Below, piece after piece: positions 32,354 through 35,725 of a stretch of 64,000 nucleotides of DNA. The notes below the pieces were generated by a model. That model was given only the letters and a program-made list of their open reading frames with translations, searched no databases and was not told the origin of the DNA. The position numbers and the translations under genes are program-made. The stretch covers positions 1 through 64,000 of the forward strand of contig NZ_AUBG01000011.1 of the NCBI RefSeq assembly GCF_000429125.1. The letters are read 5' to 3'. The stretch comes from Aequorivita capsosiphonis DSM 23843. Its GTDB lineage: Bacteria; Bacteroidota; Bacteroidia; Flavobacteriales; Flavobacteriaceae. How positions within the stretch are numbered: position 1 is the stretch's first letter; each line of letters starts with the position of its first letter.

Positions 32354-35300
32354 TTATCCCACGATATTTACGATTTTCCCAGGGACAATAATCACCTTTT
32401 TAGGCGTGCGACCCTCTAAATACTCCGCTGTTTTCTCGTGTGCCATTACGGCAGATTCAATTTCATCTTTACTTAAGTCTAACGGCAATTCTAGTGTAAA
32501 TCGCATTTTCCCGTTGAAAGAGATTGGATATTCTTTGCTACTTTCTACCAAATACTTTTCTTCAAATTTTGGAAATGGCGCCGTGGAAACACTTTCTGAA
32601 TGCCCTAACTTATTCCAAAGCTCTTCGGCAATATGAGGCGCATATGGCGAAATAAGAATTGCCAACGGCTCCAAAACTTCACGTGCATTACATTTTTCTG
32701 CAGAAAGCTCATTCACAGCAATCATAAATGACGAAACAGAAGTATTAAAACTAAACTCTTCAATATCTTCCTGAACTTTCTTTATGGTTTTATGAAGCGT
32801 TTTTAGCCCGCCAGCGCCCGAAGGGGGAGTATCGCTCATGTAAAAACTTTCGTTTTCTCCGGAATGATATAATTTCCAAAGTTTTTTAAGGAATCCGTGC
32901 ACTCCCGTAATCCCTGCAGTATTCCAAGGTTTTGCTTGTTCAAGCGGCCCAAGAAACATTTCGTACAGTCGTAAAGTATCTGCACCGTATTGCTCACAAA
33001 TATCATCGGGGTTTACCACGTTGTATTTGGATTTGGACATTTTTTCTACTTCTCTCCCTACAATGTATTTTTCATTATTATTATCTATTACTATTCCGTT
33101 TTCTGAAATGAAAATTGCGTTTTTATATTCTTCTCTTGAATTCCTAAAAGTTTTAATATTCAACTCATTGTGAATATCTACCAAAGAAACATCTACGTGT
33201 AAAGGAATTATCGTGAAGCCAACAATTTTATCAATTATACTTTGCCCAATTAATCTAGATTTTAAATTCCCCTTGACTATATTTAGAAAATCATCATTCT
33301 TCCATTCCTTATTGTGAACAATATGATTTCTTAATGTTTTTGAAACAAAAATATTTGTATTATGAATAAAATTAGGATAATTAGCATTTAAGCCAACAAG
33401 CTTATAGGCAAACGCACTCTCCCCCAAAATCATCCCCTGATTAATCAGCTTTTTAAATGGTTCTTCAACAGGAACCAAACCGCGATCGTGCATAAACTTC
33501 ACCCAAAAACGACTGTATAATAAATGGCCGGTTGCGTGTTCGCTTCCACCTATATATAAATCTACGTTTTGCCAATAGTCCAAGGCTTCCTTTGAAGCAA
33601 ATACCTCATCGCGTTTTTCACTCTCCATATATCTAAAAAAATACCACGAACTTCCAGCCCAACCCGGCATTGTATTTAGTTCAAGAGGAAACACATTTTC
33701 TTGGTCTGCAAACTGATTACTGACTACTGAACATTTTTTCGTATCCCAGTGCCATTTTGTGGCGCGACCTAAGGGCGGCTCTCCAGTTTCCGTGGGAAGG
33801 TATTTTTCAACCTCAGGAAGTCGTAATGGCAAATATTCTGTTGGGATTGCATGCGGCATTCCATCTTTATAATAAATTGGGAAGGGTTCACCCCAATATC
33901 TTTGTCGGCTAAAAACTGCATCGCGTAAGCGGTAATTTATCTTCCCTTCACCGATGCCCTTTTCTTCTAAAGCAGTGGTTATTTTTTCAGTAGCTTGCTG
34001 ATAGGTTAGGTCATTTAGGAAATCACTGTTAGTGATTGTTATATTTTCCTTACCAGAATATGCTTCTTCAGAAATATCCACATCTTTAAATATGTTGGGA
34101 ATAGGAATATTAAAATGTTTCGCGAAATCATGATCACGTTGATCGCCGCAGGGAACACTCATAACAGCTCCGGTTCCATAACCAGCCAATACGTAATCGC
34201 CAATCCAAATTGGAAGTTTTTCTCCTGAAAATGGATGTTCAGCATAGGCACCTGTAAAAACACCTGAGATGGTTTTTACATCCGCCATTCGTTCGCGTTC
34301 GCTTCGTTTGGCCGTTGCTTCCACATAGTTTTCTACTGCTTCCTTTTGTTCCGCAGTAGTTATTTTTGAAACCAAATCGTGTTCCGGCGCCAAAACCATA
34401 AAACTTACGCCGAAGATGGTGTCGGGACGGGTGGTGAAAACTTCTATGGAAAATTTTTCATCCAATTCATCCTTAGGAAAGTCCCAACCTAAATCCTCCC
34501 CCGAGGGGAGGACTTGTAATATCGCTTCAATTTTCGATATTACAGTTTGAAGATTATTGAGAACGTCAAGATTATTAAATCTGATAACTTTATAGCCTTT
34601 TTTCTCTTTTAGCAATAACTCTCTCTCATCGTCTTTTTCCAACTGATATTGATGGACTTCTCCATCTACTTCAATTATCAATTTTTTCTCAAGACATACA
34701 AAATCAACTATATAATTATCAATAGGATGTTGTTGTCTGAACTTATAACCAAGTTTCTTACCCCTCAGTTCTCCCCAAAGTTTAGCCTCTGCTTGGGTGG
34801 GGGTTGGGGGGAGGACTTTAAACTTTACAGTGGCTCCTTTACTTCTACCAATCCAGTTGGTCTGTGAATCTTTTAATGGCTGCGGCCAATCGATTTCATT
34901 AAGTCCGTCCAGCAATCGTTGGGCGTATGCTGTGATACGCATACTCCACTGTTTCATTTTTTTGCGGACAACAGGGTATCCTCCTCGTTCAGAAACGCCG
35001 TTTACGATTTCGTCATTTGCCAAAACGGTTCCTAGTTGTGGACACCAGTTTACTTCAGTTTCGGCCAAATAGGTCAATCTATATTTAAGTAGAATCTCTT
35101 GTTTCTTGGTTTCTGAAAAGTCTATCCATTCTGAAGCGATAAAACGTTCAATTCCTTCATCACAAACAGCATTTATTTTTACATTTCCTTCCGAAGAAAA
35201 AATAATACGCAATTCTTCAATGGAACGCGCTTTATCTAAATCCTTATCGTACCAACTATCAAAAAGTTGCAAAAAGATCCATTGTGTCCATTTGTAGTAT

Positions 35301-35725
35301 TCCGGATTTGAAGTACGTACTTCACGGCTCCAATCGAATGAAAAACCAATTCTATCCAATTGTTTGCGATAGCCCTCAATTTCATTTCCGTTCTTGTCAA
35401 CGCCTCCCTCAATATTCACTTTGGTTGTTTCGGCTGGATGCTGCCCCGTTTGGATTGCATATTGTTCCGCTGGAAGTCCGAAGGAATCATAACCCATAGG
35501 ATGCAAAACATTGAAACCTTGATGGCGTTTAAACCTTGCATAAACATCGCTGGCAATATAACCAAGTGGATGCCCCACGTGCAAACCAGCTCCTGATGGA
35601 TAAGGAAACATATCCAAAACGTAGTATTTTGGCTTGTCGCTTAGATTCTCAGCTTTAAATGTTTGGTTTTTGGCCCAATATTCTTGCCATTTGGCTTCTA
35701 TTTCGTTGAAGTGATATTTGCTCAT
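32354..35725 (-). CDS. leuS: Leucyl-tRNA synthetase with inserted DUF559 nuclease-like domain
   Basis: Class I synthetase, 1123 residues against about 900-950 usual in this family. HIGH is HVGH (49-52), the CP1 editing domain has TTRPDTIFG (about 430), and KMSKS is near 895. Three additions are visible. Residues about 304-404 are a complete DUF559 domain (KLWGELRGKKLGYKFRQQHP, YIVDFVCLEKKLIIEVDGEV, GYKVIRF) placed in the linker into CP1. Residues about 775-890 carry an enlarged version of a Bacteroidota-specific insert before KMSKS. Residues about 966-974 (TPPSGAGGL) come from a GC-rich repeat. The frame and all catalytic motifs are intact, so the enzyme is probably active. Confidence 0.93.
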   Translation of the reverse strand: MSKYHFNEIEAKWQEYWAKNQTFKAENLSDKPKYYVLDMFPYPSGAGLHVGHPLGYIASDVYARFKRHQGFNVLHPMGYDSFGLPAEQYAIQTGQHPAETTKVNIEGGVDKNGNEIEGYRKQLDRIGFSFDWSREVRTSNPEYYKWTQWIFLQLFDSWYDKDLDKARSIEELRIIFSSEGNVKINAVCDEGIERFIASEWIDFSETKKQEILLKYRLTYLAETEVNWCPQLGTVLANDEIVNGVSERGGYPVVRKKMKQWSMRITAYAQRLLDGLNEIDWPQPLKDSQTNWIGRSKGATVKFKVLPPTPTQAEAKLWGELRGKKLGYKFRQQHPIDNYIVDFVCLEKKLIIEVDGEVHQYQLEKDDERELLLKEKKGYKVIRFNNLDVLNNLQTVISKIEAILQVLPSGEDLGWDFPKDELDEKFSIEVFTTRPDTIFGVSFMVLAPEHDLVSKITTAEQKEAVENYVEATAKRSERERMADVKTISGVFTGAYAEHPFSGEKLPIWIGDYVLAGYGTGAVMSVPCGDQRDHDFAKHFNIPIPNIFKDVDISEEAYSGKENITITNSDFLNDLTYQQATEKITTALEEKGIGEGKINYRLRDAVFSRQRYWGEPFPIYYKDGMPHAIPTEYLPLRLPEVEKYLPTETGEPPLGRATKWHWDTKKCSVVSNQFADQENVFPLELNTMPGWAGSSWYFFRYMESEKRDEVFASKEALDYWQNVDLYIGGSEHATGHLLYSRFWVKFMHDRGLVPVEEPFKKLINQGMILGESAFAYKLVGLNANYPNFIHNTNIFVSKTLRNHIVHNKEWKNDDFLNIVKGNLKSRLIGQSIIDKIVGFTIIPLHVDVSLVDIHNELNIKTFRNSREEYKNAIFISENGIVIDNNNEKYIVGREVEKMSKSKYNVVNPDDICEQYGADTLRLYEMFLGPLEQAKPWNTAGITGVHGFLKKLWKLYHSGENESFYMSDTPPSGAGGLKTLHKTIKKVQEDIEEFSFNTSVSSFMIAVNELSAEKCNAREVLEPLAILISPYAPHIAEELWNKLGHSESVSTAPFPKFEEKYLVESSKEYPISFNGKMRFTLELPLDLSKDEIESAVMAHEKTAEYLEGRTPKKVIIVPGKIVNIVG
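32805..32830 (-). repeat. GC-rich palindromic repeat inside leuS (C-terminal copy)
   Basis: On the minus strand it begins ACTCCCCCTTCGGG and ends GGCGGGCT, in an otherwise AT-rich gene. It encodes the stretch TPPSGAGG within the anticodon-domain linker. It resembles the copy at 43943-43967. Confidence 0.55.
34505..34818 (-). mobile_element. DUF559-coding insertion in leuS flanked by direct repeats
   Basis: The 11-mer AAGTCCTCCCC occurs at 34818-34808 and again at 34515-34505, exactly 303 bases (101 codons) apart and in the same frame. Between them lies the DUF559 domain. The right copy continues into a perfect hairpin CCTCCCC-TCG-GGGGAGG; the left continues as C-rich sequence. This has the form of an in-frame inserted repeat unit, comparable in principle to the Rickettsia palindromic elements. 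Mobility is inferred. Confidence 0.6.

Follow-up and report, generated by a model that had tools for sequence, protein, structure and literature searches.

The leuS gene of Aequorivita capsosiphonis, which encodes leucyl-tRNA synthetase (LeuRS), carries a DUF559 nuclease domain within its reading frame, and it is certain that the insert is an in-frame element bounded by repeats. In our preferred reading, to which we assign a probability of about 60 %, it is a mobile nuclease element that spreads like a homing endonuclease but without an intron or an intein. Sequence comparisons support that fixed points are occupied patchily, that the spread is horizontal, that the ends are rich in hairpins and that the insert is under purifying selection with conserved putative catalytic residues, and movement between species is strongly indicated. 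That the spread is driven by the element's own nuclease is plausible; we infer that the empty allele is cut, that the fusion protein is tolerated and in which direction scars arise.

The leuS gene and its insert

The window, i.e. the whole stretch of 64,000 nucleotides that was analysed, contains leuS on the minus strand (32354..35725) as a single open frame of 1123 amino acids with the insert inside it. A Pfam scan of LeuRS found the synthetase, editing and anticodon-binding domains as well as DUF559 (PF04480), which sits just ahead of the editing domain and comprises residues 308-403 (34517..34804, minus strand; E value 6.9e-29, 100.3 bits at a curated cut-off of 20.6). The NWIGRS motif (residues 290-295, 34841..34858, minus strand) is located immediately upstream of the insertion point, and the FTTRPDT motif (residues 430-436, 34418..34438, minus strand), at which the editing domain starts, immediately downstream. 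An earlier note on this DNA had described a complete DUF559 domain with a PD-(D/E)xK-like core that looks intact. The Asp/Glu core, conserved in embedded copies, is borne out, and the candidate catalytic residues are present here despite a short N terminus. The domain is complete only in part, since the match covers profile positions 13-108 of 109, so that the start is missing; the N-terminal extension of its relatives is lacking, with about 30 N-terminal residues missing in comparison to the congeners. Likewise, the position given for the insert was right, but the stretch that is absent or swapped for short unrelated linkers in the empty alleles of other Aequorivita species is slightly wider (34460..34819, minus strand, about residues 303-422).

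No splicing (Hint) domain is among the seven Pfam families matched in LeuRS at E <= 0.01, in agreement with the earlier observation that none is visible. The insert itself matches only DUF559 and, below the cut-off, MTES_1575; a Y1 tyrosine transposase, as known from REP/RAYT, was not matched in it. The predicted structure of the whole LeuRS (pLDDT 53) is too poor for placing the DUF559 domain. A second stretch of LeuRS, residues 773-894 between NQGMILGESAF and KMSKS (about 33044-33409 of the window), varies greatly in length and sequence among congeners; it belongs to the catalytic part and contains repeat-like SSPSGRPGG linkers in some of the loci L008-L035.

Flanking repeats

The 5' flanking repeat reads AAGTCCTCCCCCCAACCCCC in gene sense (34799..34818, minus strand), and congeners with the same insert subtype encode KVLPPAPSxGxG-like peptides. 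The 3' flanking repeat (34476..34515, minus strand) consists of a hairpin, AAGTCCTCCCC TCG GGGGAGGA, which continues into TTTAGGTTGGGACTTTCC and encodes VLPSGEDLGWDFP. Of the 11-mer AAGTCCTCCCC, which had been noticed at both ends, the minus strand has one copy at 34808-34818 and one at 34505-34515, 303 bp or 101 codons apart. Both copies are thus located; however, the bare 11-mer is only mildly unusual, with three matches in the window at one mismatch or fewer versus 0.57 expected, a number reached by 2 of 100 shuffles. The right copy, at 34505-34515, is an arm of a strong hairpin (CTCCCCTCGGGGGAG) with -22 kcal/mol, equalled by 6 of 200 shuffles. No such fold is seen for the 5' copy in this species (-3.7 kcal/mol, equalled by 48 of 200 shuffles), but the 5' repeats at the leuS insert are palindromic in several congeners, as judged by eye.

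The genome was searched for the flanking repeat and for other DUF559 copies, as the note had proposed. The 11-mer was rejected as a genome-wide repeat: its only further exact copy, in an unrelated ORF, looks accidental; palindromic repeats do occur around a standalone DUF559 gene. This gene, the only other DUF559 match of the genome (L002:1000-1940, G000 contig 3), is an ORF amid a run of palindromic repeats of about 90 bp, at a locus whose sequence reads N in part. The pattern CTCCCCN{2,8}GGGGAG is present at five places of the genome versus one for the control. In a hydroxylase-like ORF (L253:250-2103, G000 contig 6) two nuclease-free in-frame linkers resemble lone palindromic repeats by eye.

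Occupancy in Aequorivita

LeuRS was searched in 59 genomes; among 28 congeners, all except G003 and G026 were read at the insertion site. Just eight of these 26 possess DUF559 at this point; the other 18 have short linkers, and therefore DUF559 as a fixed domain of LeuRS was rejected. Several of the DUF559-free linkers resemble other simple or palindromic repeats. The repeat-like DNA at these sites (L014-L035) comprises GAATTCAGAATTC runs, GAGTTATGAGTT...CATAACTC palindromes and TCCCTTCGAGCGCAGTCGAGAAG, and could be repair filler at a break hot spot. Even close relatives differ: the sister species G013 and G021 (support 100/99) carry different insert subtypes, and G012 has an insert that its sister G023 (100/95) lacks.

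In the 28 congeneric genomes the long frames found with DUF559 are leuS, recG and metH, each with the domain in frame. The recG gene was found in 27 congeners (none in G007); the site is occupied in six, short and clean in 16, reading SKLWHKN[ED]YPPH[VI]LVMTATP, and extended by short extra linkers in five. As judged by eye, G022 and G023 have a solitary 3' flanking palindrome as their linker, the linker in the genome of the window resembles a decayed palindrome of this kind and that of G020 a remnant of the 5' end; the linker of G008 is not assignable. No target-site duplication was seen on reading occupied against empty recG junctions. A search with the Pfam model, which counts occupied copies only, found metH with DUF559 in two of the 28 genomes.

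The claim that a repeat-borne nuclease domain had come into an essential gene and left the frame intact is supported by these empty sites and by the presence of the subfamily, with similar repeat-encoded linkers, in many genes. Immobility, with the insert in all relatives, a vertical phylogeny and no repeats elsewhere, does not describe what the genomes contain.

Distribution in Bacteroidia

Among 299 genomes of Flavobacteriaceae, 108 have a DUF559 match at E <= 1e-15, and at least 36 domains, in at least 31 genomes, lie in frames of 700 amino acids or more. The best 30 of these loci are leuS (14), recG (8), metH (7) and hisD (1, recognised by eye). In 395 genomes of Bacteroidia there are 133 with a match at E <= 1e-25 and at least 72 domains in frames of 700 amino acids or more. 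In a scan of named genomes the best 80 loci were taken as Bacteroidota from their record titles, one doubtful name being checked.

From the Bacteroidia and named-genome scans 108 domain-bearing ORFs were clustered, and 28 representatives were named by NCBIfam. Host profiles on both sides of DUF559 identify ileS, valS, leuS, metH, acs, recJ, mazG and mutS and, in addition, a CoA-transferase, hutU, paaZ, wecB, an ABC-F protein, a GH31 alpha-xylosidase, rdgB and uvrA. Counting recG, at least 17 host gene families have host sequence on either side of the domain. DUF559 is near one end of the host in an RluA-family protein, gmk, a LegC-type aminotransferase, WbcJ and hisD. One protein, L231, gave no named host, and ten of the 108 ORFs look standalone. 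Further hosts, tsaB, tsaD and PP2C-like genes, were recognised by eye; the names tsaB, tsaD, SpoIIE/PP2C, hisD, hemD, dehydratase and hydroxylase derive from motifs and not from profiles, and are what we take these genes to be.

Occupied loci exist also in genomes listed as one contig (G002, G016, G174, G264 and G297). A search of viral contigs gave 80 loci, and the one that was read, L276 (52 % identity), is valS with an insert, on a contig whose viral label seems doubtful. The plasmid search gave 37 records, each with less than 60 % identity. In six genomes (L096-L099, L101 and L113) a gene that is hemD-like by eye has a different DUF559 subfamily fused in frame on its N-terminal side, in some with a repeat-like linker between DUF559 and the hemD part.

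Anatomy of the element

The linkers at either end of DUF559 encode peptides such as SPSPKGEG or PPLGGRGG, as seen by eye. Over 138 unique embedded domains, the best fold of 60 nt has a median of -18.9 kcal/mol on the 5' side and -22.9 kcal/mol on the 3' side, compared to -12.4 kcal/mol in host controls and -9.7 kcal/mol inside the domain (flank versus host, Wilcoxon p 7e-21 and 5e-22). All 12 controls were beaten by 95 of the 138 3' flanks and by 68 of the 5' flanks; the 43 3' flanks and 70 5' flanks that did not beat every control count against the element reading. Seventeen standalone copies are hairpin-rich downstream (p 1.5e-5) and weakly so upstream (p 0.011).

A single MetH of G264 contains two inserts which are sisters in the domain tree (100/87). 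They have 418 nt in common at 82.5 % identity, namely the domain with 27 nt upstream and 18 nt downstream. Since the shared part includes stretches of the repeats, the pair suggests that the moving unit is repeat, nuclease and repeat. In the best reading the element measures roughly 420-500 bp, ends in palindromes and is probably open in the host frame throughout. Nine genomes were checked for a recent burst of copies; they gave one close pair, two paralogues of G353, and the G264 MetH pair. The remaining same-genome pairs were diverged or had no or short matches, and where one genome has copies in different host genes, these have mostly diverged. The paralogues of G353 (L257 and L258) are two PP2C/SpoIIE-like genes, by eye, whose inserts occupy the same point and are near-identical (93.6 % over 471 nt).

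Phylogeny and horizontal movement

In a domain tree of 71 rows the recG inserts form one clade (99/93), the metH inserts form one clade (100/100) and leuS requires two changes. Altogether the host labels change seven times, the minimum possible, which none of 200 shuffles reached. The two insert groups of leuS raised the possibility that its site had been invaded twice; a single clade was not rejected (AU p 0.23, on a domain tree leaving out L007, L103 and L102), and the idea was dropped. A quick class-wide tree of 186 rows, labelled by coarse motif patterns and leaving out L007 and L103, has 43 label changes versus a minimum of 17 and a shuffled mean of 124.9 (0 of 200 as low); its 42 rows labelled 'other' include leuS and ileS loci missed by the patterns.

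Host trees of 26 to 28 rows require at least seven changes of leuS occupancy (eight occupied rows) with the joined leuS and recG cores, eight with the recG cores and six with the leuS cores; recG occupancy (seven occupied rows) needs six, seven and seven on the same trees. The joint tree of 26 rows gives eight changes if subtypes are counted, and the shuffled mean of the empty group is 7.1, so that leuS occupancy on this tree is at the level of shuffling (7 versus 7.1).

Identity at synonymous third positions peaks over the insert in five pairs, which were chosen after viewing the data and whose counts are rebuilt from rounded percentages: 139/146 in the insert versus 342/456 in the flanks for recG of G005 and G012 (p 6e-9), 119/142 versus 264/436 for metH of G026 and G020 (p 1e-7), 88/118 versus 246/457 for leuS of G013 and G002 (p 4e-5), 121/148 versus 300/444 for recG of G016 and G012 (p 8e-4) and 99/135 versus 282/478 for leuS of G019 and G016 (p 0.003). 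Many other pairs have no such excess. Over 23 within-site pairs, which are not independent, dS of the insert is below that of the flanks in 17 and above in six. There is thus strong evidence from these alignments that the insert moves horizontally relative to its host gene, though not in every pair. The host sequence to the left and right of the insertion lies at conservation percentiles of 97/96 in metH, 85/91 in recG and 60/89 in leuS, the low value on the left of leuS counting against homing; acs and ileS had too few rows.

Selection and structure of the nuclease

The same 23 pairs, which draw on six of the eight congeneric leuS inserts (L006 and L012 being left out) and never cross subtypes, give an insert dN/dS of 0.06-0.17 for 22; the remaining pair, at 0.39, has a dS of 0.07. 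Such low values argue that the insert is translated and under purifying selection. Among 149 embedded copies, a set found by profile and hence favouring intact ones, each of five candidate active-site positions is retained by 147-149. In the leuS inserts L007 and L103 core residues are changed, as would be predicted for a cycle of invasion and decay.

The structure model of the insert domain has a pLDDT of 83. Foldseek returned three matches at E <= 0.001, the DUF559 protein 3hrl and two chains of 3r3p, the homing endonuclease I-Bth0305I (E 1e-4, TM 0.67-0.74); a sequence profile agrees on these top two in the same order and matches 3r3p with an E value of 3e-7. Vsr itself (1cw0) is found at rank 13 (E 0.034), below AbaSI, PvuRts1I and chains of the mitoribosome. 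The model agrees with a predicted Vsr/PD-(D/E)xK-type fold with conserved, putatively catalytic acidic residues.

A possible mechanism and its alternatives

According to the homing-like reading, the element would occupy tolerant stretches of core enzymes, often beside conserved motifs. The translated nuclease would remain part of its host enzyme and break an empty allele close to the tolerant loop; the element would then be copied in by repair on the template of an occupied allele. Spread would run between alleles of one gene, across strains and species; a new site, in the same or another gene, would be founded more rarely, and loss would leave in-frame scars, at times a lone palindrome. Because the frame stays uninterrupted and the added domain would be tolerated by the host enzyme, neither an intron nor an intein would be needed. 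The element encodes little beyond the catalytic domain, and as regards the choice of target this counts against the reading. In its broadest form, for which the chances are about even, the proposal is an undescribed class of selfish elements homing without splicing: a palindrome-bounded nuclease would be copied in frame beside active-site motifs of essential enzymes and stay there as a live extra domain, many core enzymes of Bacteroidota would carry or have carried a DNA nuclease, and lone palindromes would be scars or non-autonomous kin.

The hairpin-rich flanks of the 138 embedded domains and the sequence downstream of the 17 standalone copies could also mean that the repeats are the mobile part, as in Rickettsia palindromic elements or REP/RAYT pairs, and that DUF559 acts on, or rides between, their ends with no homing at all. 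Lone in-frame palindromes at two recG sites and in the hydroxylase-like ORF (by eye) fit such an insertion, as does the repeat that travelled with the domain in the MetH pair of G264. However, these scars may be remains instead of arrivals, the CTCCCCN{2,8}GGGGAG pattern has just five places in the window's genome (control one), and insert lineages tied to one gene, if less cleanly so class-wide, are unexpected for a repeat-driven transposon; we regard this explanation as rather unlikely. Without any drive, too, the insert might travel between species, carried along with occupied alleles by ordinary homologous recombination. The six of 23 pairs without an insert excess fit such passive spread, and leuS occupancy changes less often on the leuS-core tree (six) than on the recG-core tree (eight). 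Patchiness at several sites in many genera, retained catalytic residues and low dN/dS suggest that the nuclease is selected for something, so that passive spread appears improbable.

Purifying selection on DUF559 and identical sites across different genera would be expected, too, of a useful accessory domain that was gained anciently and lost frequently. But the same domain is found in enzymes without a common task, linkers at both ends are encoded by repeats, sister species differ, and 16 of the 27 recG sites are short and clean, all of which makes such a domain very improbable. Some loci come from fragmented genomes, where an artefact of assembly or gene models might arise; the occurrence in the one-contig genomes mentioned above and in records of named isolates reduces this chance to almost nothing.

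Relation to known systems

The insert nuclease is related in sequence and fold to I-Bth0305I, a homing endonuclease of the EDxHD/Vsr-like type. Like homing endonucleases, the insert patchily occupies fixed points in conserved genes and is, in several pairs, more alike than its flanks. I-Bth0305I is described as a long multi-domain protein with a target of nearly 60 bp (PMC3943268). The insert has in contrast no intron or intein and no long DNA-binding part, possesses palindromic ends and would keep the nuclease inside the host enzyme. With inteins it shares site-tied lineages and the in-frame placement in core enzymes, often near conserved motifs (compare PMC2814812). In contrast to inteins, no splicing domain was found in it, its linkers are repeat-encoded and the product presumably stays fused.

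Standalone DUF559 proteins (PDB 3hrl; PRK09767) belong to the same family and are the best match in sequence and fold. Standalone copies score lower with a profile of the embedded type and mostly match from further in. We know of no report on mobility of standalone DUF559 proteins. Rickettsia palindromic elements carry, to our knowledge, no nuclease. They have in common with the present element that palindromic repeats lie in frame in unrelated genes, with a length of about 150 bp and 44 insertions in genes of R. conorii (PMC10969869). The present element differs by a conserved nuclease between two repeats and a unit of about 420 nt (418 nt in the G264 pair). A homing endonuclease frame fused to a host protein is reported for the fungal mitochondrial rps3 (PMC7902536), there in one mitochondrial gene which is itself intronic; here the insertions are internal and affect many bacterial genes. 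In the open-licence library searched, as opposed to subscription journals and preprints, no account of such an in-frame DUF559 element was found.

Here a related nuclease seems to dispense with removal altogether, in aminoacyl-tRNA synthetases, methionine synthase, repair enzymes and others. If true, this would account for extra domains in many annotated enzymes of Bacteroidota and suggest a role for one DUF559 subfamily. It would also show one way in which old enzymes acquire new domains, and homing without splicing would become directly testable.
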